This document shows positions 22,779-64,000 of a stretch of DNA of 64,000 nt, in pieces. Both the position numbers and the translations under genes were made by a program. Source of the stretch: Apiotrichum sp. Y4204 (taxonomy: Eukaryota > Basidiomycota > Tremellomycetes > Trichosporonales > Trichosporonaceae). Positions within the stretch are counted from its first letter, which is position 1. Each line of letters begins with the position of its first letter. Location of the stretch: NCBI GenBank assembly GCA_025531455.1, contig JAMYHL010000037.1, positions 310,001 through 374,000 of the forward strand, in the 5' to 3' direction. The notes beneath the pieces are model-generated. The model had not been told where the DNA came from. It was given only the letters and a program-made list of their open reading frames with translations, and searched no databases.

Positions 22779-22859
22779 CGACAACGGCATGATTCGAACA
22801 TGCGCTCCCGAAGGAAATTGATTTCGAGTCAATCGCGTTAACCACTCCGCCACGTTGCC
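22779..22859 (-). tRNA. tRNA-Ser(CGA), copy 1, no intron
   Basis: 81-nt class II tRNA. The acceptor stem GGCAACG pairs with CGTTGTC (one G-U), the anticodon stem ATTGA/TCAAT encloses the loop CTCGAAA with anticodon CGA, there is a long variable arm (TCC-TTC-GGA type hairpin), and the T arm is GCATG-TTCGAAT-CATGC. The discriminator is G. A T-rich terminator (TTCTCTTTT) follows directly. CCA is not encoded. The about 34-bp upstream flank is closely similar to that of copy 5 at 39435. Confidence 0.95.
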
Positions 22860-24429: not shown

Positions 24430-24463
24430 ATAAGATAAGAGAAAAAGGGAAGCAAAAGATAAC
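23643..24463. other. Spacer between tRNA-Ser copies 3 and 4 with A-rich tract
   Basis: No gene supported. From about 24,300 to 24,460 the plus strand is strongly A/G-rich, including a run of 20 A at 24399..24418. On the minus strand this is a T-rich region directly downstream of tRNA copy 4. It could be a degenerate poly(A) tail of an old plus-strand retrotransposed sequence, or simply an expanded pyrimidine tract. Confidence 0.45.
24399..24418. repeat. Poly(A) run (A20)
   Basis: Twenty consecutive A on the plus strand inside a longer A/G-rich tract, 46 bp from the 3' end of tRNA copy 4. Confidence 0.9.
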
Positions 24464-24544
24464 CGACAACGGCATGATTCGAACATGCGCTCCCGAAGGA
24501 AATTGATTTCGAGTCAATCGCGTTAACCACTCCGCCACGTTGCC
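24464..24544 (-). tRNA. tRNA-Ser(CGA), copy 4, LINE inserted at its 5' end
   Basis: Intact 81-nt tRNA-Ser(CGA) without intron, same stems, loops and G discriminator as copy 1, followed by a TCTTTT terminator. Its first eight bases (GGCAACGT on the minus strand) are duplicated at the far end of the adjoining 11.6-kb LINE, so the retroelement entered between tRNA nucleotides 8 and 9 and the target-site duplication restored the gene. The original upstream flank now lies beyond 36170. Confidence 0.93.
24537..24544. repeat. Target-site duplication, 3' side of LINE
   Basis: ACGTTGCC on the plus strand, the complement of the first eight bases of tRNA-Ser copy 4. The identical 8-mer occurs at 36162..36169, exactly where the LINE's strand-biased composition stops. 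Confidence 0.7.
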
Positions 24545-24560
24545 ATGCATATTCTGCCTT

Positions 24561-24614: not shown

Positions 24615-27600
24615 CTATGTGTTCGTAGGGAGGTCATGCTCGTCGCGCTTTCTCTTAAGTGTGGCGGCAACGAATTGTTGTTTGTGTGGCCTCCTATGAG
24701 CGTGGTCCGGTGTTGCCGAGTCCGGGCTGCGTGGGCGTTTTGTTGGTGGGGCTGGGTGTGCGAGGGGTAGGTTTCCTGCTCGGTTTCGGTGGTTAGTCGG
24801 CTTGATTTTGAGGGATTTACGCGGGGGGTTATGCCGTGGAGGGGGAGGATTGGTCAAGGTGTGTCGTGTGTTATGTGTTTGGCCTGAGTGCGTTGGTTGC
24901 ACTATGGTTGCTGATTCCCTTGAGGGCCCGGTTATGCGTTGGTGGTGTGCCCGTGAAGCTTCAATAACTCGGTGAACTTCTGCTGCTGTCTCGGGGGATG
25001 GGTCGGCTAGTAGTCGGGCTAGGACGTCTGGGTGTGGGATTCTGGAGTGTGTCGCTGTCATGTGGGTAGATCCTGTTGGGTCGGCATGCGACATCTGATG
25101 ACTTATGCGTGCTAGGAGCCTGGGGTGGGGTACGCGGGTAGGAATATAGTTGGCGAATTCCTCGTCTGTGAACGGGATATTGTCCGGAATCTCCATATTG
25201 GTAGGAGTGATCACAGAGGGGTCATTTGGGGTTGGAGGGTCGGTGGGCTGTATTGTGTTCGTGCGGGGTCGGGGCATTGGGGTGGTGGCTGGGATCGGAT
25301 GTGGGGGGCTCGAGGCTGGGGCGTTCGATGTGGGTCTAATGCGTTTGGGTTGGGTGACTGGGGTGGTGTCGCTGCGGTCAGTGTTGGCGTCGGTTCTAGT
25401 GGTAGTGTTGGGGTTGGCGGGAGACCGGATACTGGTCTGGCTTTGAGGGTTGGTGATAGGTGAGGGGTGGATCGTGTGAGCGTTCGTGCCATTATGGTTA
25501 GCGTTGGTGGTAGAGGTGGTGTTGGTGTTGGCGTTGGTGATGGCTGCGGAGTTTACGATGGCATTGGGGTTGATGGGATCATATGTATTAGTCTGGGTTC
25601 GGGTGTTGGTGTCAAAACGGGGGTGGGTCGTGGGGGCGGTCGAGCTTGTCGTGGGCTTGGCCGGTCTGGACGCCCCTTTGGGTGGTGCTTGGCGTATACG
25701 GATCAGTTTGTATCCAGCGGGGTTCGGGCGCGCGACGTCCGGTTGGGGCCCCCTCAAGGTTGAGGATCGCGGTTTGCCTGGTTTGGACGTGGTGGTGTTG
25801 GTGGTGGTGGTGGTGGTGATGTCTTGTGGGACTGGGGTCAATCTGATCCAGGCTCCCCAGACTGTAGCTGCGACCGATACGCATGCTCGGTACATTCGAG
25901 ATTGGTGCCATGGTTGTAGTGGGTTAGGGGGGGGAGACGTGTAGCCATGATAGTAGGAACCTGTGAAGGGGGATTCGTGGGAGAATGTTAGTCTGGTATA
26001 TGTCCGCCAGGCGGATGCAACTAGTGCAGGATCGAAGTTTTGCCGATCCGGGTACGTTACGTGGCGCGGGGGTCTTGGTGGCTTGGAGGTTTGCTCAGTG
26101 ATCGCTTTGGTGCGAATTGTTTCTAGTGTTGGGCAGTGGATGAAAATGTGAGCTGTGTCGGCCCAATTGTGGTGGCAGAGGGGGCATTCTGGGTCAGTGT
26201 TGTATTTTCTAAAGAGCGTTGCAGGGGTGTCCAATAGGTTGGTGCGGGTAAGGTATTGTAGTTTAGGGAGAAATTTAGCTGGGGAGATGGTATGGAAGTA
26301 TGGGTCGCATGGGACTCGGGCTAACATATACTCTCCTTTGAGTCTGAGAAAGAGAGCGGTGGGGAGCTGTGTTAGGGTGTGTTCATGGGACGATCTCTGG
26401 ATGGCCAGTCGCCAAGTGTCGTTCATGTATCCGTTTCTCCCCATGACGGCATGGTTGGGCATGAAAGCTGTTGGGGGGGGTAGGATGGTGTGCAGGATGT
26501 TGAGGGTATTCGTGTTTTGGTCAGTGTTTGGCGGATATGATGAGTGGAGGTGAGGTGAATGGGCCCGCTTCGCGAGTAGGTCCGCTGTGTTGTTGAGGCG
26601 TGATCGGATGTCGGTATTGAGCGTGTGGGCTTTGACGTGGGTGACCGCAATTGCGCAGGGAGGTCTTATTTTGGCCTGTGTTTGGATCATGGCCATTCGT
26701 AGTACTGCTATGACTTCTCTGAGGGGCTTTGCTTGCCAGGTGAGGTTAAAGATGGTGTCGTCCGACTGAATGTGGCGTGCGGTCTGCACTGCTGATTGGT
26801 AATCTGTCACAATCTCATGAGAGGAGTTAGGGTCGTATTGTGTGGCTAGGAGCGCCGCGGCTGTAGCCAGGATCTCTGCGTGCCCTGCGTGAGATTCCAA
26901 TCCTGAAAGTGAGTATGTGACGGACTTGTTTGTTGGGCCCACAATCGCCGCGGAGGTTGATGGGGGGTTTATGGATGAGAGACGTGTGTCTGTGGGGTGG
27001 CGGTATGACTCGTGGTGGCTCCCGTCCGTCGCCCATATAGACAACGTGGAATCGTGGTCTGGGATGTTAACGGTTGTCCCTGTTATGATATCCATCGGGG
27101 GTTGAAGGAGTTGGAGAAATCCGGATCTCCTGCGTTGACGCGGCACAAGGAGGGAAGTGTCATGGTGAGCCAGAATCCGGGGCCATGGCGTGTGTTGCCA
27201 CCTTGATCCGTCATTCGCGCTGGTGACGAGGAATGTGCTGACCGGGATGTTGTAGGTGGCGTGGGAATATGGAGGGAGAGGTATGCGTTTGGAGGGGTCT
27301 GAGGAGAGATGGTGGTCACTGCAGAGGGTGGCGTGTGCTGCCGATAGAGTGTGGGCCATTGAGCACGAGGAGATGTGGTAGCTAAGATCCGTTGGGGTGA
27401 TTTTGAGATTCGCGCGGCCCAGTGCCGTTCGAGCGACCCTCCATGCGTGCGGCACTGGTGGTTTCCTCAGTATCTGGGTTTCATGCGTCTGTGTCTGGCG
27501 TGGTGTGGGGTGTAGGAGGGGGTTGACGCAACATTGGTGAGGCGAGCATGTCCAATTGGCCAGGGTCATATGTGCGGCTAGTGCGAAGGGTTCGAATCGG

Positions 27601-30600
27601 TGATTGAGGGCTCGAAGGGTAGTCAGTACGGCCAATTCTGCATTGATGGTTCTGATGGATGGGAAGCCAAAACCTTTGTGTTCTATTGGGAGGGATAGCA
27701 GAGGGTGTGCAGTGGCCGGTAAGTATAGTGCTTCACATACTTTGTCGGCAAGTTGTTTGTCCGCTTTGGCTGCATCCACCTCAGTGAGAGGTTGGTGTGC
27801 GAGCAGTGGGCGGATTTTAGGAATAAGGATTCCCCATGCTATGCGACGGGCCACATTCAGGTTCAGTGCTGGGGATCGTGGGATGGAGAAGTCGATGATG
27901 ATGTTACTAATCTTGATGGCTGAGGCATGGGGGTCGTCAATGAATGTCTTGAGGAATGACGGAGACCGGTCGACAGGGATGGAGCGTAGGTGCCCGTTGA
28001 TGATCAGTTCTACATGGCTCGGGAGACCTAGGGGGGTCTGTCCATATACCGCGCAAGTTGTTTTCTGGGACCAGGCCGTTACGATGCCATATGTGGCTTG
28101 AAATTTTTCCGCTAGGTCTGTAAGTTCTTCCAGCTCCCGCCAGCTTCTGCTGAATAGTACTGAGTCGTCCATGGCTTCCACTGACAACAGCTTGAGTCGT
28201 AGAAAGTCGGGGTGTGTGTGGGGGTTAAGTTGTTGACGTGTTGTCAAGGTTGGCGCGCGATGCCCTTCGCAGTCGTTCAGCCAGTGGTGAAGCATGGACA
28301 TTGTGAGGGTGTATTTGATGGGGCTTGCAGCGTCCCCTTGTTTTAGCTGGCCGGTCGTGAGAATCGGGGGTCCGATCCCGTCTTGTGTCCTGACGAGTAG
28401 CTGGACTGACTCAGCTCGTGCTCGTTCGAAGTCAATGAGGGAGGCGGGGAGGCCATATGCTGTGACTGCATCTTCGAATCCTGTGGGGGATAGAAAGTCG
28501 AATCCCTTCATGTGATCTCTTTTGATGGTGTAAAGAGATGTCTTCATTCGTTGCGCCAGCTTATGGACCGAGGCCAAGAATGCTGTGAGATCGCCAGTTT
28601 GAACGCCTTTTTGTGTGGCGATCTGTGTGGGTGGGATGAGGCCGGCTTTCCATGCGGTCTTTTGGAGGAAGTGCGCTAGCCAGGCGGCAATGATCGATTG
28701 GATGAGATTCGCGAACACGATGCCGCGGTAGTTCGTGGGCCGAGTGGGGTCTCCAGATTTGTAAAGGGGGGACAGGAAGTTGTCTTTCAGGGGTTTCGGG
28801 AATGAGTTGGTTTTGATTGCGTAGTTGCATACTGATAGGACACATTGCAAAAAGCTTTCAGGAGCGCGTTTGAGCATCCATTTTTCCATGCCGTCCGGCC
28901 CCGGGGACGGGCATGGGTTTCCCGAGTTGAGGATGAGCCTGAGATCAGGTAGGGACATCAGTGCCGGCCACGCGTGGGGCTTGGGATCACGTGTGATGGA
29001 ACGCTTGAGTGCTCGGATCGTTGGGGATGTCAGCCATGGTTTTGGAACCTGTGTTGGGATGGGTGGGCGTTGGAGTAGGGTGTTGAAGTGATGAGTGAAA
29101 GCTTGCAGTTTGTGTTTCGGAGACGTGAGGAGGTTACCTTCGGGCGACAGGATTGCCGGGGCGTTCGTGATGTGGTGGGTTCGGAGTAGACGTTTGATTG
29201 GTCCCCCTCTGAGGGCACGAGCGTAGTTGGCCTCAATCTCTGTCGTTGACGGGGAAAAACTTGCTGATGGGTGAAACTTACGAAGTTGGGTCGCGATTGA
29301 GTTGCGCAGAGTTCTGAGTGCTTTAGGGCTTGTTGGGTCGTGTTCTGATAGTTGGTTGGACAACGAAATCAGTTCCTGTTCTATTGGGGAGAGCGATGTT
29401 GCAGTTACGTCAGGGTGGAGCTTCATCCGTCTGATCAGCTTTTTTGTCGCCTCTAGATGTGTCTTTAATCGCGATTCCTGTGGGCTGGGTGCGGGGCGCC
29501 ACATGGCGTTTGGTGGGTTTTTGTACTTTCGGACGAATGATGCTTCGGCAGCCTGCGCCATGGCCTCTTGGATTTCTTCAATCGCCCGATTGTGTGAGGC
29601 CTCATCGACAATTGGCGCAATGGTGAACGGGGCAAGGGCCTCGGCCATGGCTGTGAATCGGGGATCCTCGCGGTCTTTTGGTCTAAGGTACCGTGGTTGG
29701 ATTCTTGTGCGGAATGTAGATCGGGGCAGGGATAGATTGGCAAGAGATAGGTGTGTGATAACGGGTCGATGGTCGGTGTCTGGTACGGTTCGGTTAGGGA
29801 TAGTGATGTCTGCAATTCTGAGGGAGGGGGAGCAAGTGAGTCGATCAATAATCCGGTGACTGGTGCCTTGGTTTCGCCTAGTGCCAGGTGCGGCGGGCTG
29901 TGCTCCGCGCCCGAAGGTCCAGTGGGTACGAACATTGGTGTGTGGAAATTGGTTCCAGGAGTCAATAGCATTATGTATTGCGAGGAAGTTACGGTAGCAG
30001 ACCTGTCGTGCGCGATGGAGTGTGCTTCCTTCGATGGACATCTCCCAATCGTTCAGTACACAGTTGAAGTCTCCCAGGATGAACCAGTGATCAATGCCCT
30101 GGATTAAGGAGCTGATGTAGTCCCAGAAGTTCTCGTATTCGACCTGGGTATTTCTCGAGCCATCGGGGGTTGGGGCGTAAACTGTGATTGCTCTTACAAT
30201 AGTCGGCCTGTTGTTGACCGGGAGGATCAGGTCAGCCATTGAGATTCTGCCCAGTAGGTCGTTCGGGACGGGGGGAAGTTGGGGAGATGTGTAAGCGATT
30301 GATCGGTGGATGAATGTCGCAGTGCTGGAGGACTGCTTTGTGGGGTGACAGCTAGTGACCATTGAGTATGCAGGATGTGTCCATGGTGGGAGGTGGAGGT
30401 GTCTTAGACCGTACTCTGAAAGCGCGATGACATGTGGGAGAACCTGATCTACTAATAGAGTAAGTGCGTCTAATTTTGGAACGTTATAGGGTGTCATGCT
30501 CGTGCAGTTCAATGTTAGCGTCGACAGGATGTTCGGTGCTGGTAAATGGGCCGCTGATGCCTGAGGGAGGATGATTATAAGTGATATGACGGGATTATGG

Positions 30601-33600
30601 GTGATTTGCAATGGTCTTTTATATATACACATGCATATGAGGAGGGCTATAATGAGGTTCATTCCGTGTTGATGGGGGGTGCTTTGCACTGGTATAATAG
30701 TGGCAGGCGAGTCGGCGGGTCGTGTGGCAACAGGGGAGCTTGGGCTTTGAGCGTCTGATTCATCAAGCCTTTCGTGCTGTCGTGTGATCTTTATGTTGTG
30801 CTCGGCGCGTGCTTGTTGGACCGTTGTTGTCGCGGCGGGGGGGTATGTCTGGGGTGGATGTGGATTTAGTGAGGCTGCGTGTTGGGTTGTGAGGCTGACG
30901 ATTTTGGGGGGGTGAGGCGGACCGGGATACCCAAAAGCGCGGTTTCCAGGTGGGTCTGGTAGGTGGGTGGGTGGACGAGGGGGTGGCATGGGTTGTTTGG
31001 GTGTCGCTAGCGTCCGTGGGGTTCTTAGTGGGGGATTTGGTATTACGGGACCAGTCTGAGTCATTGTGGGGCGTAAGGGGGCATTCTGAAACATTGCGGG
31101 GTGTCTGGTTCGGGGGGTTTGTGGGGTTGGTTGTGTGTGTGTGCAGAGAAGTGTGCAGCTTGGGTGAGCTAACTGGGTCGGGCCGGGAGGGCGGTGTTTC
31201 ACGGCTTGACTGGCATGTGAGTATTTTGATATTACTGTATAGTCAGTGGGGAGGGGTTCAAGGGGGTTGGAGTCGGTGCACAGCGGGATATGTGCGGTTG
31301 GGGGGTTTGGTGGGTGTAGTGGATCACTAACCTCATCGATTTCCATGCGGCCTTTTCCTTTGCCAGACGGATCCGGGGGAGAGAGGGGGGCGGTAGTCTG
31401 CACGGGGTTGTTGGCGTCTTGTGTCAGGTTGTCACTAGTGATCGTGCTCGACGTGATCAGGTTTGACGGACCAGGTCCGAAGTTTGAGAGGAAGGTTTCG
31501 ATCGAAGGGGGGGCTTCGAGGCGGGGGAAGTTCACAGGGCACTCTTCATGGGTCTCGAGTTTCTGCTGCCACTTGGTCTTTTCATCAAGCAGTGTTTTAA
31601 GTTGTGCGGAAGCTGACTCAATGGCCTTGCGTAGTAGTTCGGTGTCCGCCGCGGGGGTGTTCAGAACGGACGCCATCATGAGGGAAGTGGTTTTTTGGTC
31701 AATCGTGGATCTCAACGACGTGATTTCGTTCTGGAGGTCCTGGATCCGGCGCGAGAAACGGAGGGTCTGATTTTGGTGTTTATTGGTTGTTGCCTGGTGT
31801 TCTGACAGTGCGAACGTGTTCATTGTTTGAGTGTGGGACGTCATGGCTACGTATTTGAACAGGCCGCCAAGGGCGTTACGGGTCTGCTTGTTGTCTTCGT
31901 GGAGGGCTGCTGCGGTTTTCTCCTGGGCCGCGGAGGCCTTAGTTAAGGTGGTGTCCAGGCGTTGCGAGAAGCCAGGGCCGTTGCGAGGGTTTGTGAGCAT
32001 GCGGACGTTGAAGCCGCCCTCCATGGCTTTAGTGAATGTGGTAACCACAAGGATTGCCGATGGGATGGGGATGTCGGCTAGGTTGTTGAGGACGAAATGG
32101 AACACCGTGTAGTCGCTGAAGGTGATGGTGCCCCAGCGTGTGTGAATTCCAAGGGTATTGCAGATGTTGACGACTCGAGGCATGGGATCCGGGCGGGGCT
32201 GGCTACGGCGATCTAAGTCTGCAAGATACTGGCGGACTAAGAATTTGGCAAGGTATTTGAGTTGGTCTTCAGTGAGGGTATCCTCCGCTGCTAAGGCGAG
32301 TGTGGCGGGTCCAGGGGAAGGTATGATGTTGTTGATGCGGACGAAGTGGAAGTCGAACCAGGATCCTCCAATCTCCGCTTGGAATGGGGTGTCGCGTTCC
32401 GACGAGTGCTTAATGAGGGCATCTACGTCCCAGGGGGTGGGGAGGTCGATGTGAAAGGAGGGTTGAGCGGTTTGGTTGTTCAGAGGTTGGAGATTCCCCC
32501 AGGGACGGGCATCGTGGATATTGAGGGACGCGCAACATTTCTTCGCGAATTTGAAGGCGGCGTTCTTGTCTGGGACCGCGGACTTTCCTTCGGCATGGCG
32601 CTTCGAGGTTGAAAGGGTGACCTTGCAGACGGCTACTGCAAGTTTCGACGTGGAGGGGCCAGTCATCCAGAATGCCGCGATGTCGCGTTTGAGGAGTCTA
32701 ACGCGGAGCGTGTGGAGTAGGTTGATAGAGGCCACGCCGTTTTGGAGTGCGTCGGGGGTGAAGCGGATTCTCATAGTGCGGTCGACGAACGAGTTGCCGC
32801 GGCTGTCTCCGGCTCCGGGTTCGACAAATAGAGATTCGGGGTCGATTTGGATGTCCGTGGGGAGGTTGAAGCCGTCGTTGATATGTTGGAGGATGAGACG
32901 GGTCTTGGTGAGGATCGCTGCAGTAGACGGGCCCGAAAGGCCAAACAGTAGGAGCTCGAGGTCCGCATATGAGGGTTTCGCAAATGGGTCGGCGTCAAGG
33001 GACATGCCCTCAGTATCGATGACATCGTCGTCGAGTGAAATCAGATTGGCGGCTTCATAGTCGATTGTTGAGGAGAGGGCGAGGTGTGCCCCGGGATGGG
33101 GAGCCGAGTCGGGGGGGATATTACTGGTGGCCATTGAAATTAGCGAGGTAGGGAAGGATGGGTGTGGTGGTGAGTATGTTAATGGGGTGAGGGGAGGTGG
33201 TAAATGTGGGTAGCTGTCAGCTAAGAGGGGCAGCGTCGTCGGGCATTTAATCTGATGAGCAGCAGGTTCTTTTGCATGCGGGTTGGGGTAGGTAGCTGGG
33301 TGTGTGGGGTTGATCACAAGGGACCGGTGAAGTCGGAGTTCGCAGAGTGTGGGACGGGGCGTCACTGAGGTGTGTTGTAGGTCATGCGTTGGGGTTAGGG
33401 GGGCGTGGGCGTGTGTGTGCGGGGACAGGAGATCTAGATCGGCCAGATCGAGGTGGGCGCAAGTGGCGGCTTGTGAAGGGCGGGATGGATGTCGAATCCA
33501 GTTGTTTATGGGCGGCGTGCGTAGTGAGAGAGAGGGGGGGGTTTGGAGGTGGGGGGTCGTACCCAGGATTCGGGTTGACCTCAACAATCGTGAATCATGG

Positions 33601-35606
33601 GGTGAGTGTGTTTGGCATTCCTGGTGATACGAGATAAGAGATCTCTTGGGATCAGGGCGCTCTTTCTCAGCCAGGGGTCCTATGCGTGGGGGGCCCTGTG
33701 TATCGGGTGTGTGGGTGATCTCATATAGCATGTGTAGGGGTTCCGGGTATTGGATCATGTCCCGGTCGTGGAGATCTATGGACCACGAGGGGTGTTGGGG
33801 ATTGCGGCGCTGGTGACTGGAAAGGGCCCGTCCCACGGTGGGGTGTGGGTGAGGGGAGGTGTGAGCGCGGGTGAGAATGTTAATATCTGCCGGACACGTT
33901 TGATCTCGAGATCTGTGTCTCATGCCGAGATCCAAGCCGGGCTGGTCTTGTTTGTTGTGATTGGCGTCCTTCGTAGTATTAAATGTGGTCACCATGGGGC
34001 TTGGGGGGAAGGGGGTTTGGGGGGTGCGAGAGTTTAGGATCGCTCTGGGCGGTTGTAGGGCAGACCAGAGGTACTGGACTGACTGGGTTTGTGATGCGTG
34101 TGTGTGGTTCTGCATAGGTGTGGTGTTTGTTTTAACCTCACCGGGGTGGGGAGATGGAGCTGCGTGATTGCTTGTTCCAATATCCATTGGGTATTGTGGT
34201 TCAGGCCAGTGTGGGGTTGTACAGTACCAGGTCATGGTGGTTGCTGTCGGGCCTCCATTCGTCCATTGGTGGTTGTGGTCGATGGGGTCCACTGGACCTT
34301 GACACTTAACAGGGCCTCTAGCGGCAACATCTATGTGATTGTTATCGTAATGCTTCTTTTGTTCTGCACGGGGGGATTCAAACTGTATGCCCTGGTCTAG
34401 CCGTCTGGGGGTTTTGTGTGGCTCTAAGTGCTCTGGTCTGTCCATGGTGGCTCGGGATTCATTGAGACCGGTGTATCTGACGTTCAGGGCCTCGGTTTGT
34501 GATACATCATGAAGATGAGGAGTCCGGGTGGGTCGTGCAAGGTCTACGGTTGTGCGATGTATGGATTGTATAGATTGTATAGACAGGGGCATTAATTCTT
34601 GGTGAGGCAACCCTAGTCCTAGTGTCATGGACTGATGTGTGTGTGAAGCTGGTGCGGGGGGTTTGGTCACGTATGTGAAGTATTCCGCTGGTGGAGATCT
34701 GTTCTGTGCAGTCGTGTGATGTGTACCAGTGTGTGTCCAGTAGAAGTCATTAGGTGTCTCCCAGTGTCCGGGGTGGCTCTGTCGGGTGGTGTAACCTATC
34801 ATAGCAGGGTTCGCGATCAGTCTGTCTTCGGGGAGTATCATATGAGATGTTGGGTGTGACGAGATAAGTGTTCCAGTGATCCAGCGGCGGGTTGGGTGCA
34901 GTATCACCGGTTGACAGTCATTCGGGTCAGAACCTGTTCGCATGGGGGCTGGACACAGGAGTAGGGTTGGATTAGTGGACTGAGGCAGTTCATGTGTATA
35001 TGCACTGGACATTTTGGAAGTAACGAGGACAGGGAGTAAGGCAGCCGGAGCTGGGAGCACGGAGGCCGTGTCCGACGAGGTGAGTGACGACCAGTCAGCC
35101 CGCAGATGGTAGTTACACCACTGTGGAGCCGCAGCCCTTGCCACTGAGCGCTCATCCAATACAAGAACCCGGTTTAGATTAAAAATTGTAATGTGGCGCG
35201 ATGGTAACGCCGTTGGAGAGGTTGTAGAGTCCGGGAGGGCCGCATTCGAGAGCCTGTGACCCGGTTGGTAGGGATCAGTTGTCGCTGTTAGGTTATCAAT
35301 GGCCCGTGCGGTGTGGTGCGTTGAATCGATTGCGACCCCTAGGTGGGCAGGGGGTAATCCGCACGTCCGCGGGGCGATGTGGGTTTCGACGTTTGGAGGT
35401 TGGTGGTTACGGCCGACAAGGCACTGATGACCGTGGGTGCACTGTGCAGGGGGTGGTTGTGGGACGTCCGGGGTAGGGAGGAGTTGGGTGTGTGGTTGCA
35501 GGGCAGTTTTTGTTTGGTGTGAAGTCCAGTGTGGTTGAGTGGTGATTATTATTGCGCGGGTGCTAGCTGCCCACGCGAGCGCAAGTAGGGTGAGGGTTAA
35601 GATCAT
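24615..35606 (-). CDS. LINE polyprotein: ORF1-like, APE endonuclease, RT, RNase H
   Basis: One open frame of 3,663 codons. Residues 1-824 begin with a hydrophobic stretch and then look like translated non-coding DNA (Pro/His/Thr-rich); the likelier start of protein is Met825 (33134, MATSNIPPDS). ORF1-like region at about 825-1,300, with a coiled coil around RRIQDLQNEITSLRSTID. APE endonuclease at about 1,695-1,945: LNCTSM, ALSEYGL, VYAPTPDG, ILGDFN and TDHRPV all present. Reverse transcriptase at about 2,270-2,550: KRDHMKGFD (motif A), QGDAASPIKY (motif B) and EAMDDSVLF (motif C, MDD rather than the usual FADD). RNase H at about 2,855-3,010: ATDGSHH, GHAEILA, VTDYQSA, NNTADLLAKR. Zinc knuckle CPLCHHN-x8-H-x3-C near 3,140. 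A Pro-rich tail follows. Both catalytic Asp of RT and all RNase H acidic residues are kept. A cryptic intron between ORF1 and endonuclease cannot be excluded. Confidence 0.85.
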   Translation of the reverse strand: MILTLTLLALAWAASTRAIIITTQPHWTSHQTKTALQPHTQLLPTPDVPQPPPAQCTHGHQCLVGRNHQPPNVETHIAPRTCGLPPAHLGVAIDSTHHTARAIDNLTATTDPYQPGHRLSNAALPDSTTSPTALPSRHITIFNLNRVLVLDERSVARAAAPQWCNYHLRADWSSLTSSDTASVLPAPAALLPVLVTSKMSSAYTHELPQSTNPTLLLCPAPMRTGSDPNDCQPVILHPTRRWITGTLISSHPTSHMILPEDRLIANPAMIGYTTRQSHPGHWETPNDFYWTHTGTHHTTAQNRSPPAEYFTYVTKPPAPASHTHQSMTLGLGLPHQELMPLSIQSIQSIHRTTVDLARPTRTPHLHDVSQTEALNVRYTGLNESRATMDRPEHLEPHKTPRRLDQGIQFESPRAEQKKHYDNNHIDVAARGPVKCQGPVDPIDHNHQWTNGGPTATTMTWYCTTPHWPEPQYPMDIGTSNHAAPSPHPGEVKTNTTPMQNHTHASQTQSVQYLWSALQPPRAILNSRTPQTPFPPSPMVTTFNTTKDANHNKQDQPGLDLGMRHRSRDQTCPADINILTRAHTSPHPHPTVGRALSSHQRRNPQHPSWSIDLHDRDMIQYPEPLHMLYEITHTPDTQGPPRIGPLAEKERPDPKRSLISYHQECQTHSPHDSRLLRSTRILGTTPHLQTPPSLSLRTPPINNWIRHPSRPSQAATCAHLDLADLDLLSPHTHAHAPLTPTHDLQHTSVTPRPTLCELRLHRSLVINPTHPATYPNPHAKEPAAHQIKCPTTLPLLADSYPHLPPPLTPLTYSPPHPSFPTSLISMATSNIPPDSAPHPGAHLALSSTIDYEAANLISLDDDVIDTEGMSLDADPFAKPSYADLELLLFGLSGPSTAAILTKTRLILQHINDGFNLPTDIQIDPESLFVEPGAGDSRGNSFVDRTMRIRFTPDALQNGVASINLLHTLRVRLLKRDIAAFWMTGPSTSKLAVAVCKVTLSTSKRHAEGKSAVPDKNAAFKFAKKCCASLNIHDARPWGNLQPLNNQTAQPSFHIDLPTPWDVDALIKHSSERDTPFQAEIGGSWFDFHFVRINNIIPSPGPATLALAAEDTLTEDQLKYLAKFLVRQYLADLDRRSQPRPDPMPRVVNICNTLGIHTRWGTITFSDYTVFHFVLNNLADIPIPSAILVVTTFTKAMEGGFNVRMLTNPRNGPGFSQRLDTTLTKASAAQEKTAAALHEDNKQTRNALGGLFKYVAMTSHTQTMNTFALSEHQATTNKHQNQTLRFSRRIQDLQNEITSLRSTIDQKTTSLMMASVLNTPAADTELLRKAIESASAQLKTLLDEKTKWQQKLETHEECPVNFPRLEAPPSIETFLSNFGPGPSNLITSSTITSDNLTQDANNPVQTTAPLSPPDPSGKGKGRMEIDEVSDPLHPPNPPTAHIPLCTDSNPLEPLPTDYTVISKYSHASQAVKHRPPGPTQLAHPSCTLLCTHTQPTPQTPRTRHPAMFQNAPLRPTMTQTGPVIPNPPLRTPRTLATPKQPMPPPRPPTHLPDPPGNRAFGYPGPPHPPKIVSLTTQHAASLNPHPPQTYPPAATTTVQQARAEHNIKITRQHERLDESDAQSPSSPVATRPADSPATIIPVQSTPHQHGMNLIIALLICMCIYKRPLQITHNPVISLIIILPQASAAHLPAPNILSTLTLNCTSMTPYNVPKLDALTLLVDQVLPHVIALSEYGLRHLHLPPWTHPAYSMVTSCHPTKQSSSTATFIHRSIAYTSPQLPPVPNDLLGRISMADLILPVNNRPTIVRAITVYAPTPDGSRNTQVEYENFWDYISSLIQGIDHWFILGDFNCVLNDWEMSIEGSTLHRARQVCYRNFLAIHNAIDSWNQFPHTNVRTHWTFGRGAQPAAPGTRRNQGTSHRIIDRLTCSPSLRIADITIPNRTVPDTDHRPVITHLSLANLSLPRSTFRTRIQPRYLRPKDREDPRFTAMAEALAPFTIAPIVDEASHNRAIEEIQEAMAQAAEASFVRKYKNPPNAMWRPAPSPQESRLKTHLEATKKLIRRMKLHPDVTATSLSPIEQELISLSNQLSEHDPTSPKALRTLRNSIATQLRKFHPSASFSPSTTEIEANYARALRGGPIKRLLRTHHITNAPAILSPEGNLLTSPKHKLQAFTHHFNTLLQRPPIPTQVPKPWLTSPTIRALKRSITRDPKPHAWPALMSLPDLRLILNSGNPCPSPGPDGMEKWMLKRAPESFLQCVLSVCNYAIKTNSFPKPLKDNFLSPLYKSGDPTRPTNYRGIVFANLIQSIIAAWLAHFLQKTAWKAGLIPPTQIATQKGVQTGDLTAFLASVHKLAQRMKTSLYTIKRDHMKGFDFLSPTGFEDAVTAYGLPASLIDFERARAESVQLLVRTQDGIGPPILTTGQLKQGDAASPIKYTLTMSMLHHWLNDCEGHRAPTLTTRQQLNPHTHPDFLRLKLLSVEAMDDSVLFSRSWRELEELTDLAEKFQATYGIVTAWSQKTTCAVYGQTPLGLPSHVELIINGHLRSIPVDRSPSFLKTFIDDPHASAIKISNIIIDFSIPRSPALNLNVARRIAWGILIPKIRPLLAHQPLTEVDAAKADKQLADKVCEALYLPATAHPLLSLPIEHKGFGFPSIRTINAELAVLTTLRALNHRFEPFALAAHMTLANWTCSPHQCCVNPLLHPTPRQTQTHETQILRKPPVPHAWRVARTALGRANLKITPTDLSYHISSCSMAHTLSAAHATLCSDHHLSSDPSKRIPLPPYSHATYNIPVSTFLVTSANDGSRWQHTPWPRILAHHDTSLLVPRQRRRSGFLQLLQPPMDIITGTTVNIPDHDSTLSIWATDGSHHESYRHPTDTRLSSINPPSTSAAIVGPTNKSVTYSLSGLESHAGHAEILATAAALLATQYDPNSSHEIVTDYQSAVQTARHIQSDDTIFNLTWQAKPLREVIAVLRMAMIQTQAKIRPPCAIAVTHVKAHTLNTDIRSRLNNTADLLAKRAHSPHLHSSYPPNTDQNTNTLNILHTILPPPTAFMPNHAVMGRNGYMNDTWRLAIQRSSHEHTLTQLPTALFLRLKGEYMLARVPCDPYFHTISPAKFLPKLQYLTRTNLLDTPATLFRKYNTDPECPLCHHNWADTAHIFIHCPTLETIRTKAITEQTSKPPRPPRHVTYPDRQNFDPALVASAWRTYTRLTFSHESPFTGSYYHGYTSPPPNPLQPWHQSRMYRACVSVAATVWGAWIRLTPVPQDITTTTTTNTTTSKPGKPRSSTLRGPQPDVARPNPAGYKLIRIRQAPPKGASRPAKPTTSSTAPTTHPRFDTNTRTQTNTYDPINPNAIVNSAAITNANTNTTSTTNANHNGTNAHTIHPSPITNPQSQTSIRSPANPNTTTRTDANTDRSDTTPVTQPKRIRPTSNAPASSPPHPIPATTPMPRPRTNTIQPTDPPTPNDPSVITPTNMEIPDNIPFTDEEFANYIPTRVPHPRLLARISHQMSHADPTGSTHMTATHSRIPHPDVLARLLADPSPETAAEVHRVIEASRAHHQRITGPSRESATIVQPTHSGQTHNTRHTLTNPPPPRHNPPRKSLKIKPTNHRNRAGNLPLAHPAPPTKRPRSPDSATPDHAHRRPHKQQFVAATLKRKRDEHDLPTNT

Positions 35607-36118
35607 GGTGATAGGTCGGGATGGTATGTGCGGCCCAGGTGGTGGATGAGGCTGTTTAGGCGAATGTGTGGGTTGAGACGTGGGAAAGTGGGAAAGTGGG
35701 ATGCGGGCGGTGTGAGAGACGAGGCGTGTTTGGATACTGTGTGTAGTGGTCCCACGAGTGAGTGATATCGTGGGAGAAATGGGACGCAGGGTCCCCCAGT
35801 CTGTCGTAGAGGGTGAGGGTGGTGCTCAAACAGAACGGTGCGGGAACCGCTGGTGCGGGGGGGAGTTGGAGTGGTCAAGCCTGGAGTCGCCGGAGCCCGG
35901 AGCGACGATGGAGTGATGGGGCCCTTGAGGACGGGGCGGTATTGGGTCGCCCAGTAGTGGGAAGTTGGTCCGAGGCAGGCGACGAGGGTCAGCGGGGAAG
36001 GCGCCGGTGATGACTATAGGGTGCCTTGTTAACGGTGGTAGTCCGGTGATGGTGCTGGAGGTGCCAGCGCTGGTTGTGATGGTGGCGGTGATGGTGCTGG
36101 TGATGGTGCTGATGGTGG

Positions 36119-39434: not shown

Positions 39435-39515
39435 GGCAACGTGGCGGAGTGGTTAACGCGATTGACTCGAAATCAATTTCCTTCGGGAGCGCATGTTCGA
39501 ATCATGCCGTTGTCG
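39435..39515 (+). tRNA. tRNA-Ser(CGA), copy 5, no intron
   Basis: 81-nt tRNA identical by eye to copies 1 and 4, on the opposite strand and 15 kb away from the cluster. CGA anticodon, long variable arm, G discriminator, T5 terminator (ATCTTTTT). Its upstream flank resembles copy 1 and its first downstream bases (GTTATCTTTT) resemble copy 4. Confidence 0.95.
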
Positions 39516-56010: not shown

Positions 56011-58123
<2,113 letters not shown>

Positions 58124-58670
58124 TCCCCTAGACGTGTGCTAGTAGTGTGCTAGTCGCAGTGTGACCGAGAATGTAATACCCTAGCCGTGGCGTGCGCGGA
58201 GAGGTGAGGATCGTGTATGATTGACTGCAGCGGTGTGATGAGACGTCGAGGATCCCCGACAAGATCCCGGACATGAAGATTCCGGCTTTGTGGAGCCAGC
58301 TCTTCACTCTCAACCATCACCACGACGTCTTCAATAATGCGCTGACTGAAACAACCGTCCATGACCACACGACTGACAACACCACTGATGGCAGCGTCAC
58401 GATTCCCATTGTTGACAGACACACATCCCACATCTCTCGCACCCAGCACACACTTCATGACCCATAACGCAATACATTGTTCCCATGATGGCGAGGACGG
58501 CGACGTGGGACGACAAGGACAGGAGTATATATCACGATGCCTTGTTCCCTCCATCCTCCTCCATCTCCTTCCATCTCCCCATCCTCACCGTCTTTACCGT
58601 CCTCACCGTCCTCACCATCCTCACCGTCCTCACCTTCTTAACCGTTGATCCCCCAAGCTCCACGTCTGCA
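58124..58670. other. Intergenic, promoter of four-Cys gene A
   Basis: No gene supported. It contains CATGATGGCGAGGA at 58484..58497, nearly identical to an element before gene B, and a TATATAT stretch at about 58526..58532, about 140 bp before the gene A start. A CTCACCGTC repeat (about 58,575-58,640) forms the leader. Confidence 0.5.
58484..58497 (+). promoter_or_regulatory. Shared upstream element, gene A copy
   Basis: CATGATGGCGAGGA, 13 of 14 bases identical to 59752..59765 upstream of gene B. In both places a TATA-like stretch follows. Confidence 0.45.
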
Positions 58671-59627
58671 ATGTCCGCAATCATCGGCATGGCGCACTAC
58701 GCGTTTGCCCCGACGCGCCCGCCGCCCATGCGTCCGATGCCGCGCACGCCCTCACCGGTACCGCGCGCGTCGTCCGACTCAATCGTGTCGGTGGCGCCGG
58801 CGCGTACGCCGGCGGGGTGTGCGGGGAGTAGGGATGGGAGAAGGAGTTTTGATGGTGGGTACACTGAAAAACGAGAGTGAACTTTCTGTCTCGAACCGAT
58901 GGTATCGGGCGAGAGGGGGACTGCGATTCTCGCCCTGTTCACACTTCCTCTTGCCTTGTCTCATTCTCTCTCCTCTGACAATCTGACACCAGGCACCTGC
59001 GTCTATCTCCGCGACGGGACGGGCTATCCAATGTGTCTGTACTGCCGCGTTCTGCGCCGGCGCGAGTTTGTGTACGTAAACAAGTAGAACTGGACTGACG
59101 GCAGGACTGAGGCGGAGGCGGAAGCGAAAGCGAAAGCAGAAGCCAGGGCGGCGGCCGCAGCCGAGGCGGAAGCACTGGCTGCGATGACTGCGCCACAGGA
59201 CCAGTACGAGTCTGAAGAGGACGACGAGGAAACTCAGCTGCCGCAGCTGCCGTCACGCTCCCGCTTTCACGGCGTAGTCAAGGCTTTGCTCCGCCTCGCG
59301 CGCCCCGAGGCCACGATCTACGAGGAGCCCGAGACGCTCGGCGAACGGCTGCGTGAGGTGTACCGTCCGCGGCGCTCGAGCTCGGTGGGGACCAGGAGCT
59401 TGAGCACGATGAGTTCGATGAGCTCGATGGCCTCGAGCAGCCACATGAGCTCGACGACTTCCATCTTAGCTAGCAGCCGGAGGACTAGCACAATGAGCCT
59501 CGACACAGACACACCCGCGCCAAGCCGGACACGTCGGGTCAGCTTCCAGGAGCCGCTTCAGCGGGGGCGGCGCTGGCGGCGGACGGCGTCAGAGGGTGAG
59601 ACGCGGAACAATGAGTGCAATGAGTGA
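58671..59627 (+). CDS. Four-cysteine module protein A
   Basis: No family recognised. Exons 58671..58854, 58993..59071 and 59105..59627 (introns 138 and 33 nt) give 261 residues. Layout: a Pro/Met-rich N-terminus (MSAIIGMAHYAFAPTRPPPM), then the module spanning exons 1 and 2: C-A-G, 13 residues between Cys1 and Cys2, 11 to Cys3, then CLYC. An Ala/Glu/Lys helix (EAEAEAKAKAEARAAAAAEA) follows, then an acidic stretch and a Ser/Met/Arg-rich tail. The module's phase-1 intron lies two codons before Cys2, as in genes B, D and E. Four cysteines with a C-x2-C suggest zinc binding (inference). Neither the first nor the last exon is recognisable alone. Both splices keep frame. Confidence 0.65.
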
Positions 59628-59751
59628 GGGGGAAGAGGGGGATGCGGGATGGTATCAGCATGAATCATTTGACACAAAAGATGCATTGATATACACAGGA
59701 CTTGTGTGATTCGCGCCGCTGAGAGCGTGTACTGATCCCAAGTATTTTTCT

Positions 59752-59770
59752 CATGACGGCGAGGATATAA
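59752..59770 (+). promoter_or_regulatory. Shared upstream element and TATA box, gene B copy
   Basis: CATGACGGCGAGGA running directly into ATATAA, about 60 bp before the gene B start codon. The first 14 bases match the element before gene A at 13 positions. Confidence 0.5.
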
Positions 59771-59828
59771 GTCACATCTAGCGCCCGCTCTCCTTGCCAC
59801 CCAACCCCATCCCACTCTTACTCCCCAA

Positions 59829-60028
59829 ATGGACGAAATCCAGCTCTGTGTGGGAAACTACGCCTTTGAGCGCAACCGCGGCCGTGAGTCCCCCGAGAGC
59901 ATACAGTACTGACGACAGAGCCGTGCAAGCCGTACCGCGCGACTGACGGGGCGAGGTGCGCGTTCTGCGGGCGCGGTGTGCCCCCCGCGAATATACATTG
60001 GGCAATCTGGACGACCGCGCCCGTTTAA
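59829..60028 (+). CDS. Four-cysteine module protein B (54 aa)
   Basis: No family recognised. Exons 59829..59883 and 59919..60028 (35-nt intron, GTGAGT donor, CTGAC branch) give a 54-residue protein that is little more than the module: MDEIQLCVGN, 13 residues from Cys1 to Cys2, CKPYRATDGARC (10 between Cys2 and Cys3), then CAFCGRG. The rest is PPANIHWAIWTTAPV. The phase-1 intron splits the Gln two codons before Cys2. A TATA-like box lies 60 bp upstream. Too short for ordinary ORF calling, but the spliced frame, promoter and family pattern support it. Likely a small zinc-binding protein (inference). Confidence 0.65.
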
Positions 60029-60296
60029 GCTGCTTGAGAGCGTGTAGAATGTAGAACGAACTGTGGTGTTTGTGTATGTACAGTGCAGTGGTGAACAATG
60101 GGTTTCTGGCGGGTGTCTTTGATTATTGTGGAGTGGTTCAGAACGAGTGGAGTGAGTGTGGCGCGTACAGTACAAACGATACTCAATCTTTGCCACATAC
60201 ATACAAACGGCTCGCCATGTACAGTGATTATGAAGCTTCAGACCTATCTACAGCATGCGAATGACAGTCACTCATGACTCTCAGTCTCCTCGCAGC

Positions 60297-61009
60297 CTAC
60301 ACGCCGTGCTTCAGCCAGATTTTGAAGCGCGTCCATCGGCTTATCCCCTTCTGCTCTGTGGCTGTACACGCCGCACAGATTCCGCACGGCGCTAACGTAT
60401 GCGCCGCGGGGCGCACCCCGCCGCCAGTCACTGTCGTCAGAACGTTCTTTGTCGCCGCCACTTACCGCACTGGCAGTAGAACTGGGTATTCCCACCGAAG
60501 CGGGGACATTTCCGGTCGTGGCGCTCATACGTCTTCCACTTGGCCTCGGCGTCCGCCCGGTCTGGGGGTTTCGGCGGTGCCTCGGTGGGCGGGAGGCGGG
60601 GAAAGTCGTCCCAGTGCACGGTACGGTCGGCGGCCTTCTGCGTCTCGGAGGGGGGTATGCCGGGCTCGAGGGAGGGCAGGGGGCGGTGCGCGAGTTGTGA
60701 GAGGTATGGGTATTCTGGATCGGGAAGGCGGATGGGGAGGCCTGCGTGCGTCGGGCAGCGGCCGCACGTACACAGTGCGGGGTCCGGGTGACACGGCTTC
60801 ATAGTAGGTACGCGAGCTGAGTGACTCCACGGTGTGCCGTTGGTGTAGTGCTTTGCCATGTGTTCGTCTGAGAAGCCTCCAAGCGCGGCAGAGAGGGTGC
60901 GCGAGGGGGTCGGGCTGTTGAGGCCGGCTAGCGCGAGGCCCTGCTGCCGTTCCGAGAGGGGCGGGGAGTGCTCGCTGAACCCCGAGGCGTTGTACCCATG
61001 GCCTGCCAT
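60297..61009 (-). CDS. Cys-rich protein C, possible divergent member of the family
   Basis: No family recognised. Exons 61009..60466 and 60430..60297 (35-nt intron with CTGAC branch) give 225 residues. The N-terminal half is disordered (Ser/Pro); PCHPDPALCTCGRCPTHAG adds four cysteines. A conserved-looking stretch follows, KWKTYERHDRKCPRFGGN then QFYCQC, the intron, and a tail with PCGICAAC and GISRWTRFKIWLKHGV. Without the splice the frame ends at 60437 in RRQRTF; the spliced tail looks more protein-like. It shares with the neighbours a phase-1 intron between an upstream Cys pair and a downstream C-x2-C, but the Cys spacing differs, so membership is uncertain. Confidence 0.55.
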
Positions 61010-61751
61010 GGAGTGGGGAATTAGAAGATGAGGAGGTAGTGAAGGACGTGGAGCTGGGGGGACAAGGGATCGGGCGTGAGATAGTGTCTGTTTGCGCGGA
61101 TGGGCGCGGTCACTGCCGATCAACGCGTCATTTGCCACCAGCGAGAACACAGGTGGCACGCGCACAGATGTTCTGAGCCATGAGCGACCAAGACACCGGA
61201 AGTGTTGGAATTTTGGTACGACATGGATCCATGCGGGTCGGTTCTGGACTTCTTCCAAGTTCCGGATGTCGTGGGGACATGGTGGCCGCGGACCTGGCAT
61301 TGCACTGAGTGACCCCCTGCCAGCCCTGCCCGCCCACTCTTGGCGCCACATCCGTCGCGTCAAATCCATTCCTGGTGGCACAACCTTGTACTCAGAACAT
61401 TGTGGTTCCAAGTCCACGCTGCACACGCGTACAGTACACGCGCACACGCGCTTACACTATATAATAACGTCCTGTCTCGTGTGGATATCTGCATATAGCT
61501 CATCTCCGTATACAGACCCGTCTGCGCCAAAGTTTTACACCGTACGACCAGGGACTCTTGAGTCCGTGCGGAAGCCACAGCCGGGTGTGGGGGCAGATTC
61601 TGCTTTTGGGTGGGGGAATGTGAGGAAAAGCCCCCTCAGGCGGGCCGGAGAGAGTTTGTACGAATGCATTATGGCACAATATGTCTTGGATGGTAGAGTA
61701 CAGCCGCCCGCCAGCGGGCGGTTTTTGTCGTCGCTTGCTTGCCTGCTCGCT
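61010..61751. other. Intergenic, upstream of gene C and downstream of gene D
   Basis: No gene supported. The plus-strand frame 61092..61763 has no domain and overlaps the 3' end of gene D in antisense. The right end contains CCGCCCGCCAGCGGGCGG, an inverted repeat just past the gene D stop codon that might serve in 3'-end formation. Confidence 0.45.
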
Positions 61752-61960
61752 CTAACCGTCTAGCCCCTTGGCGCCGTCGTAGATGAGCCGACGGCAATAC
61801 GCGCAGTACATCTTGTCGCCCATGATGCGGGGCGCGCAGTAGTCTAGCGAGTTAGTACCGCAACAGGGAACTGGGAGTGTGGCCATGACTCACTGCCAAT
61901 GTTATTTGCGTGCGCGTCCCCGAAACACCAGATGTCTGTGCCTTTTGCGCAGTTGGGCAT
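61752..61960 (-). CDS. Four-cysteine module protein D (52 aa)
   Basis: No family recognised. Exons 61960..61894 and 61843..61752 (50-nt intron, GTGAGT donor, CTAAC branch, TAG acceptor) give 52 residues: MPNCAKGTDIWCFGDAHA, 12 residues from Cys1 to Cys2, CAPRIMGDKMYC (10 between), then CAYCRRLIYDGAKGLDG. The intron is phase 1 and splits the Asn two codons before Cys2, the same site as in genes A, B and E. The Gly-Asn dipeptide before Cys2 is shared with gene E. Upstream Mets in the same open frame exist, but the region before reads as leader. Probable zinc-binding micro-protein (inference). Confidence 0.65.
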
Positions 61961-63027
61961 TGTGGGTTGTGAGGCGGAAGACGCTGTGGGTTGGCGTTGA
62001 AAGAGCAGTCGGCTGGCGCTCGATAGACGACGACTAGGTTTTGTTGAGGTTGAAGCTGCAGCACAGAATGAACGAGAGAATATTGTCAAGAAAGGAAGAC
62101 TGACCAGCTGGGACCGTAAATACTGGACGCTGCTGAACGAGGGTGCTCCCCCATCAGTGCTGCCTCGAGAGAACCTCAAGCCTCTGGACCAATACGAGAG
62201 ACCGCCTGACATACACCAGTAGCAAGCGGTCCTCGTAGAACAAAACACGTTGAACACACAGCTTTCGAATTGTCAGACGCTCGCACCATCGATCGCGGAT
62301 GACCAGACATGATATTACGACGCGACTTGTGTGTGAGGTCATTGAAACGCGTCGCAGTCCGATCATGTCGGATCTTAGGTGTTCCAGCTGGTAGAGGATC
62401 ACTGGTGCCGCTGGTCACATCCCAAGCGCGACAGGTCCAGAATGCGGGCAGTGCTGCGCGGCGAGACTGGGTTGTCACGACCGTTAACCTAACGGTTCCA
62501 GACTCTGATTGTGACTCAGGCCTTGGATGTATTCTGGTACGAGCTTCCCCTGGCTTGACCAGAGTGACGCAGACCCAAACGTGACCGTACAGAGCTGTGG
62601 GGATGGGCGTTGGGTTATTCTCGTTGAGACCTTCGCCACGATCGCCACTCTCACGCCACGACCCCACATGCTGCACGCGTTGGACAAAGTGCTGTGACAT
62701 GTGTGGTCGTGCCACACCTGACGGCGCCACACCGGCCCCACCCCAGCCATCCGGAACTTGGGACAGTGGGGTACCAGGGATGTGTTCCAATGCCCGTTAT
62801 GAATACATGTCTACAAAAACAGATGTGCTATTGATGGCCAGAGTGAGCTTTATGGACCCTGGTGATGCGTGTGTGTGGTGTGGTGTGTGGTGTGCTGAGC
62901 TCGCGTTGGAGCGTGGAGAGTTCGTGACAATATGCAGGTGTCGTGTCGTGCTGGTACAGTGAAGGTGGAGTGGAAAGATCGGCGACATGTGTGGCAGAGA
63001 TTGTTGAAGGGATGCCTTGCTCGGTCT
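61961..63027. other. Intergenic between genes D and E
   Basis: No gene supported. Contains the promoter and leader of gene D on its left and the 3' flank of gene E on its right. A C-D-M-C-G-R translation near 62,690 on the plus strand lacks the spacing of the family and has no gene context. Confidence 0.4.
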
Positions 63028-63555
63028 CTACTTCAAGTCGCGACCGCAGTAGAAGCAACGCAGCTCGGATCCAAAGTACTCCATGGCACAGAGGTCTGAG
63101 CGAGTGAGTCCTGAACGGAGGTATGACTGCAGATGGCCATCGCACTATCTCAAGCGGCGGTACTCACTGCCGTTGTTCTTCTGGTCGCCCTTCCGCCCAT
63201 TACAGAGTCCAATGGTACTGGGCGGACCGGTGATAGTAGTATGCGGGGGTGGGGGAAAGATCTCGCCTTGGACAGCGTCCTCGTCAATGGCCGGAACCCC
63301 TGCTGGGCTGGGGCCGTCATCCTCGCGGTAGAAGTACGACTCGAACGAGCCATGGCGTTCGGTCCGGCCGGCGAAATACGGTTGTGGAGGCGTTTCCAGC
63401 GCCTTGGAGCTAATATGACACCAGCCCAGGGCACCGGAGATGGAATGGGAGCGGCCGGGGGTCGGCGACAGCGGCGTGGCCGGCAGCGAGGAGAAGGGCG
63501 ACAGATGGGAAGAGGCCGTCGAGCTCGGGGACGGAGGGGCGGTGGACGCGGACAT
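63028..63555 (-). CDS. Four-cysteine module protein E
   Basis: No family recognised. Exons 63555..63168 and 63095..63028 (72-nt intron) give 151 residues. The N-terminal 110 residues are Ser/Pro-rich (MSASTAPPSPSSTASSHLSP). The module follows at the C-terminus: GLCNGRKGDQKNNGNLC (13 between Cys1 and Cys2), CAMEYFGSELRC (10 between), then CFYCGRDLK and stop. The phase-1 intron splits the Asn two codons before Cys2, and the coding sequence around the donor (GGC-A / GTGAGT) is the same as in gene D. A TATA-like CATAATAAAG lies about 95 bp upstream on the minus strand. An acceptor at the nearer CTGCAG would break the frame, so I chose CTCAG at 63096. Confidence 0.65.
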
Positions 63556-64000
63556 GATGAAGTCCGTACAACAGTATGTGGGTGGTGTTTGCTTGCTCTT
63601 CGCTGGTGGCAAGGGCGTTGGGATTTCAGCTGCCATTCGACACAGCTTTATTATGTGGTGATGGTGGTTTGTCTTTGTCGCTTCTGCCGGGTGTCGTGGG
63701 TTCTTTAAAGTAGAACAGAGATGGAGGAAATATTCGCAATGTTCAAGTGGAGAGGAATGGATCTGGGCTCTGTGGAACACTGGCCTGAGACGGGGATATG
63801 TAGAGTTTATGGGCTGCTGCCAGAGGACCGGAGGCTCTTAAAGTCACCTTCCGAATACACCATTGCACGCGTATGCTGTATGCAGTGCGAGTGCGCTATG
63901 CGCAGCCAGGAATGCAGTGCTCGTGTGCGGCCACCGCATGACATGCAGATATGTCATGTCCAGGTGCAGGAGAACCTGCAGGACAAACATTCCACTCCGG
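63556..64000. other. Right edge of window; promoter of gene E
   Basis: Promoter region of gene E on the minus strand. On the plus strand a frame from ATG 63721 stays open for 93 codons to the window edge and encodes a Cys-containing stretch (ARVCCMQCECAMRSQEC). It is cut by the window, has no recognisable domain and may be chance; I do not call it a gene. Confidence 0.35.

Follow-up and report, generated by a model that had tools for sequence, protein, structure and literature searches.

A dispersed and partly clustered family of intron-split four-cysteine modules, probably zinc-binding and often encoded alone, in Apiotrichum sp. Y4204

What kind of protein is encoded by a group of very small spliced genes that share a run of about 35 residues with four cysteines, and do these genes belong together at all? 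The question is raised by the last 6 kb, 3' of the gene for V-ATPase subunit B, of a 64,000-nucleotide stretch of the Apiotrichum sp. Y4204 genome (hereafter the window; contig JAMYHL010000037.1, positions 310,001 to 374,000), where a preliminary description had pointed to four genes, A, B, D and E, with a common module of the form C-x-G ... C ... C-x-[FY]-C. Here we report that this module defines a sequence family with a conserved intron, dispersed over several contigs and partly clustered, and we consider, with a probability of roughly 0.6, that it represents a new family of intracellular C4 modules, probably zinc-binding and often encoded alone, derived from the duplication of one two-exon gene. 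All comparisons were made within a single assembly of 48.9 Mb in 182 contigs, with gene models predicted from the DNA sequence alone. Recomputation from the sequence returned the coordinates, lengths and cysteine spacings first given for the four genes (Table 1): Cys1 and Cys2 are separated by 13 residues in A, B and E and by 12 in D, and Cys2 and Cys3 by 11 in A and by 10 in B, D and E. The phase-1 intron said to lie two codons before Cys2 was likewise found in all four by the split-module scan set out below; each of these introns runs from GT to AG, enters after the first base of the second codon before Cys2 and leaves five exon bases ahead of the Cys2 codon. The module lies within the N-terminal third of A, followed by a long C-terminal tail, and at the C-terminus of E, and B (54 residues) and D (52 residues) do consist of the bare module, as do further members.

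The assembly looks duplicated and resembles a hybrid genome with two subgenomes, because the end of the window and the adjoining bases have a counterpart on contig C115, collinear over 16.7 kb in a single alignment and 90.4% identical. Hybrid genomes are reported in Trichosporonaceae, four of them averaging 40.5 Mb and the largest reaching 42.4 Mb in one report (PMC7026411), and the present assembly is larger than any of these. The second copy, that of the sister subgenome, served us as an internal evolutionary test.

The split-module scan required C-x-G, a phase-1 donor, an acceptor five bases before a Cys codon and C-x(9-12)-C-x2-C, and in the window it returned A, B, D and E and nothing else. 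With introns of up to 250 nt, 291 kb of scanned sequence yielded ten acceptor sites at the expected phase and place, corresponding to A, B, D, E, a fifth gene (F) and their sister copies, against none at 11 other settings of phase and place. When the limit on intron length was raised to 600 nt and eight donor types were admitted, 302.9 kb gave 16 sites, every one of them a family member, against four in total at the 11 other settings, one of these being a member (48) read through an alternative acceptor. The pattern seen in A, B, D and E is more than chance would provide. What had been described as a cluster of four genes retains its four module genes in the window and holds at least six, since further genes of it lie beyond the end of the window. 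Gene F, which is intact in its sister copy, came from the scan, and the choice giving a 33-nt intron was used between two possible donors three bases apart. Gene G first surfaced through a pattern joining N-x-G to the donor and then passed the longer-intron scan; it has C-x-S-C where the majority form has C-x-[FY]-C.

Seven further members (48, 59, 60, 61, 64, 68 and 77) lie on five other contigs. Among 100 places listed for a 17-base knuckle pattern, TGYNNNTWYTGYSGNMG, six are B, D, E and their sisters and one stands at a contig end; 40 of the remaining 93 were examined, a non-random sample formed by the first in contig order. Five of the 40 (L048, L059, L064, L068 and L077) passed the full strict scan, compared with none at ten of the other settings and one at the eleventh, again member 48 through its alternative acceptor. 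L060, with the donor GTCAGT, and L061 were recognised by hand reading, L060 then passing a scan with a wider choice of donors; one more listed place, in L039, gave no hit in the split-module scan. The same intron, with 12-13 and 10-12 residues between the cysteines, is found in F, G, 48, 59, 60, 64, 68 and 77. Member 61 departs from this scheme, having 10 and 9 residues, C-P-A instead of C-x-G and the intron one codon earlier. Seven of the 13 members (F, G, 48, 59, 64, 68 and 77) came from a scan requiring the intron site. In a test independent of the intron, 13 of the 40 knuckle sites had an in-frame Cys 9-12 residues before Cys3, and at six of these 13 an acceptor stands exactly five bases before that Cys, that of L061 standing at eight. 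At L048 (C2:798429-798725) a tandem CAGCAG acceptor precedes Cys2, so that alternative splicing could insert one residue.

The count of 13 is a lower bound. Scaling seven in 40 to 140 sites (all but B, D, E and their sisters) leads to about 25 module exons in both subgenomes, the seven included, an estimate that is rough because the 40 sites are a non-random sample and TGYNNNTWYTGYSGNMG misses types such as A, F and G. The N-x-G plus donor pattern AAYNNNGGYNGTGAGT has 65 matches against 43 for its backwards control: 13 fall on exon 1 of members already recognised or of their sisters, 47 others are close to the background number, and five, located 1.2-2.6 kb from members on the same strand (on C2, on C13 and C125, and on C18 and C180), are likely further tandem members. 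A weak match to exon 1 of member 48 (C155:42576-42638, minus strand; 52% over 21 residues, E 0.17) is perhaps another.

The features shared by the 13 modules go beyond their four cysteines, which are present in all of them, by selection for most. Intron place and phase are identical in 12 of 13, with member 61 one codon off. Profiles built each time from the other 12 modules gave the omitted member 15-35 bits, and for every member not one of 200 shuffles that left the cysteines in place scored as high; when C-x-G and all positions from Cys3 onward were kept as well, nine members still exceeded all 200. Just before the intron stands N-x-G, an element absent from the preliminary description, with N in 11/13 and G in 9/13 members (10/12 and 8/12 when gene G, found by this motif, is left aside). 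The majority form can be written C-x-G-x(5,6)-N-x-G-x2-C-x(10-12)-C-x-[FY]-C-[GR]-R, about 35 residues with a net charge of 0 to +4; eight of the 13 members (E, G, 48, 59, 60, 61, 68 and 77) have just 4-6 residues left after Cys4, the proteins of A, B, D and F run longer, and the end of 64 falls outside the piece examined. Common descent of the 13 modules, proposed for the original four, is strongly supported by these sequence comparisons: new members were predicted and found, 12 of 13 have the intron site and all 13 were recognised by the leave-one-out profiles.

Comparison of the subgenomes adds a further line of evidence. Each of the 13 members is present twice in the assembly, the second copy of G being apparently broken. 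In A, B, D and E the frames, the cysteines and the GT and AG ends are kept in the sister copy, together with intron place and phase, and for all seven distant members both exons were matched on a sister contig; in the sister of member 64, on C180, exon 1 is matched weakly (E 0.11) yet in place, with the N-x-G donor motif there too. Synonymous and non-synonymous changes number 23 and 13 in A, 4 and 2 in B, 2 and 2 in D, 20 and 6 in E and 3 and 0 in F, with B, D and F individually too short for a selection call; pooled, the five genes have 52 and 23 (dN/dS 0.135, Fisher p ~1e-16) and are under purifying selection. Exon 2 differs less between the copies than the module intron in E (0/65 against 9/69), in D (1/82 against 7/50, the last 10 bases of the exon left out) and in A (4/78 against 15/138).

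Several observations weigh against the reading of a single, selected family of this kind. Exon 2 of gene B (6/110) is as divergent as its intron (2/35) and F differs little in either (2/110 and 2/33), so that single small genes give little selection signal, and the sister of G keeps exon 1 and, judged from translations, has seemingly lost Cys4 by a frame change. The stricter shuffles reached the observed score ten times in 200 for E, twice each for A and D and once for 64; the similarity extends past the selected motif, weakly for E. Compared with the first row of the alignment, the other rows are just 18-30% identical, and the pattern TGYNNNTWYTGYSGNMG, with 146 matches in the assembly against 181 for its backwards control, is not enriched and on its own proves nothing. 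The last two points would suit a chance or convergent assortment of unrelated short reading frames, an explanation that is contradicted by the scan-setting and shuffle controls, by the conservation of frames, splice sites and cysteines in the sisters and by the second copies of the distant members, and to which we attach practically no weight. Moreover, the homologues that relatives were expected to hold were found in the sister subgenome of the same assembly and not in a set of 5.8 billion proteins, where, in a search that needs shared 5-residue words, gene E drew 76 candidates, none at E <= 1, and the 12-row module alignment drew 28, none at E <= 10, A and C lying outside the search. This set holds related fungi, as indicated by the top named matches of V-ATPase subunit B used as a control (Vanrija 97%, Cutaneotrichosporon 96%, Cryptococcus 96%), and tiny genes are easily left unannotated in protein sets.

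The earlier statement that the module belongs to no known family held in that protein set as well as in Pfam, NCBIfam and the PDB sequences. No significant Pfam match was obtained for genes A-E (best E 0.046, for D, failing the cut-off) or for 12 modules (best E 0.016), NCBIfam likewise gave none (best E 0.066) and the PDB sequences gave chance-level matches only; literature searches aimed at such a family brought up no paper describing it, most subscription journals being outside their coverage. Six weak matches of gene E in its own genome (E 0.08-2.7) were dropped after five had been viewed with no module seen by eye; those on C101 and C40 lie in longer frames that we take to be arrestin-like. 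The best PDB sequence match was the N-terminal knuckle of eS26 (9v1j), which resembles gene B in N-x-G ... R-C-x2-C-G-R ... V-P and differs from the module in having neither Cys1 nor Cys2; an eS26-like identity of B was rejected, the match being at chance level (E 0.41 with the profile, 1.8 with B alone).

A small structural zinc site inside the cell would be in keeping with the four cysteines and their C-x-[FY]-C knuckle, with a module charge that is neutral to basic and with the lack of any visible signal peptide. We propose that Cys1 to Cys4 would hold one zinc ion, the knuckle providing one half-site, that the proteins would stay inside the cell and that the module may offer a small docking or nucleic-acid-contacting surface. 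The multigene family would have arisen by duplication of one two-exon gene, leaving a module that is often C-terminal, either alone in proteins of 40-55 residues or behind an unrelated N-terminal part. The same cysteines could instead hold an iron-sulfur cluster or serve in redox reactions or metal buffering, as might be suggested by their number, by a rubredoxin-like knuckle with no need of histidine and by the match of one member to BsaP (E 0.066, within chance); we consider this unlikely, because the module, in contrast to metallothioneins, has just four cysteines over some 35 residues and because its knuckle residues resemble those of zinc knuckles. Three zinc ribbon models (Zn_ribbon_9, zf-ChsH2 and Zn_Ribbon_1) also matched one member each, at E values of 0.016-0.057 that are equally within chance; zinc ribbons share the C-x2-C knuckle and carry two of them, whereas the module has one.

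Small size, an even number of cysteines, strong divergence among paralogues and a conserved intron are also known from families of secreted fungal effectors, and the modules, which combine all of these, could be read as disulfide-bonded small secreted proteins of effector-like or antimicrobial kind. To the eye, however, none of the N-termini that were read resembles a signal peptide (among them MDEIQLC in B, MPNCAKG in D, MPPPRSVC in F and MTPPSSPRRC in 48), the combination of a C-x2-C knuckle and G-R is characteristic of metal sites and the pooled dN/dS between the subgenomes is low; we regard a secreted function as improbable.

Two known zinc fingers invite comparison with the proposed C4 site. 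The A20-type finger, given as CX2-4CX11CX2C in one article (PMC9570247), resembles the module in its second half, C-x(10,11)-C-x2-C, and differs in that its first two cysteines are 2-4 residues apart, as against 10-13 in all 13 members; no Pfam match to it was obtained for the 12 modules compared. In the zf-GRF finger (PF06839), as described in another article (PMC9369019), a single residue separates the first two ligands, the third Cys comes after N-x-G-R-x-F-aromatic, and beyond the last there is a cluster of aromatic residues. Its landmarks (a paired-ligand region, N-x-G before the third Cys, an aromatic residue after the last) recur in the same order in the module as C-x-G, N-x-G-x-x-C, with its N in 11 of 13 members, and C-x-[FY], and the module might represent a strongly altered GRF finger in which one ligand of the C-x-C pair was lost and a new Cys replaced an aromatic residue after the last one; it would then make contact with nucleic acid in the manner of GRF fingers. 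Against this stand the single Cys at the ligand pair in all 13 members (C-x-G, or C-P-A in 61), which leaves the second ligand absent, a shorter distance from N-x-G to the next Cys, the extra knuckle Cys that GRF fingers lack and the lack of a zf-GRF match in Pfam for any of 12 members at E values up to 10, with filters dropping most matches above ~0.1. We hold a GRF origin to be quite unlikely and retain the C4 zinc module as the preferred reading.

Table 1. Genes of the cluster, their introns and module parts, and contig pairs of the distant members. Positions without a contig label are those of the window.
Feature	Position	Strand	Details
Gene A	58671-59627	+	261 aa; exons 58671-58854, 58993-59071, 59105-59627
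Gene A, module part in exon 1 (C-x-G ...)	58818-58854	+	split-module scan
Gene A, intron 1	58855-58992	+	138 nt, phase 1, two codons before Cys2
Gene A, module part in exon 2 (Cys2, Cys3, Cys4)	58993-59045	+	split-module scan
Gene A, intron 2	59072-59104	+	33 nt; conserved in sister copy
Gene B	59829-60028	+	54 aa, bare module; exons 59829-59883, 59919-60028
Gene B, intron	59884-59918	+	35 nt, phase 1; module 59847-59883 and 59919-59968
Gene C	60297-61009	-	225 aa; intron 60431-60465; non-member inside the cluster
Gene D	61960-61752	-	52 aa, bare module; exons 61960-61894, 61843-61752
Gene D, intron	61893-61844	-	50 nt, phase 1; module 61927-61894 and 61843-61794
Gene E	63555-63028	-	151 aa, C-terminal module; exons 63555-63168, 63095-63028
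Gene E, intron	63167-63096	-	72 nt, phase 1; module 63204-63168 and 63095-63046
Gene F	C114:377714-377514	-	55 aa; found by split-module scan
Gene G	C114:376427-375953	-	40 aa; 352-nt intron
Distant members, member/sister contig pairs	C2/C147, C24/C79, C46/C109, C13/C125 (three times), C18/C180		

Gene C, which lies inside the cluster, was considered as a family member and rejected, having no intron at the site and C-x-C in place of C-x2-C. It is cysteine-rich, with C-x-C-x2-C-x2-H (CTCGRCPTH), C-x(10)-C-x-C and a C-x2-C-x2-C stretch; CTCGRCPTH is, we presume, reminiscent of the copper-sensing motifs of fungal copper-fist regulators. Its dN/dS between the subgenomes is 0.11, and the histidine of CTCGRCPTH is an arginine in the sister copy. 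Upstream of A and B a common 14-base element, CATGAYGGCGAGGA, occurs with one mismatch (58484-58497 and 59752-59765, plus strand), a TATA-like stretch following each; it is absent from the other upstream stretches compared, in which the pairs A-C, A-D, C-E and D-F share other short stretches and no promoter element common to all cluster genes was found. Rfam gave no match in 57500-64000. Elsewhere in the window, an uninterrupted frame of 3736 residues (24615-35825, minus strand) has Exo_endo_phos, at residues 1781-1974, as its sole Pfam hit at E <= 1e-6; the GC skew is strong, +0.28 to +0.37, over 24-36 kb; and three tRNA-Ser genes with anticodon CGA (22779-22859 and 24463-24545, minus strand; 39435-39515, plus strand) were predicted with the bacterial code.

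A tiny spliced gene family with no Pfam match was thus recovered by intron position and cysteine spacing alone, and genes of this size are easily skipped by gene finders. Since bare modules occur beside longer module-bearing proteins, among them A and E, the two kinds may compete for partners that they share, and one may speculate, as a doubtful extension, that the former work as microproteins which vie with the latter for these partners. With similar reserve, it can be imagined that this genome contains a mostly unannotated set of micro-zinc modules split by introns, maybe 15-25 genes per subgenome, partly clustered and perhaps with counterparts in other Trichosporonales, which would regulate longer module-bearing proteins by competition and which may descend from a re-wired GRF finger. 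Should the zinc and microprotein readings prove true, the family would provide a new small metal-binding domain and a group of candidate regulators in a fungal order to which both oil-producing yeasts and opportunistically pathogenic ones belong.

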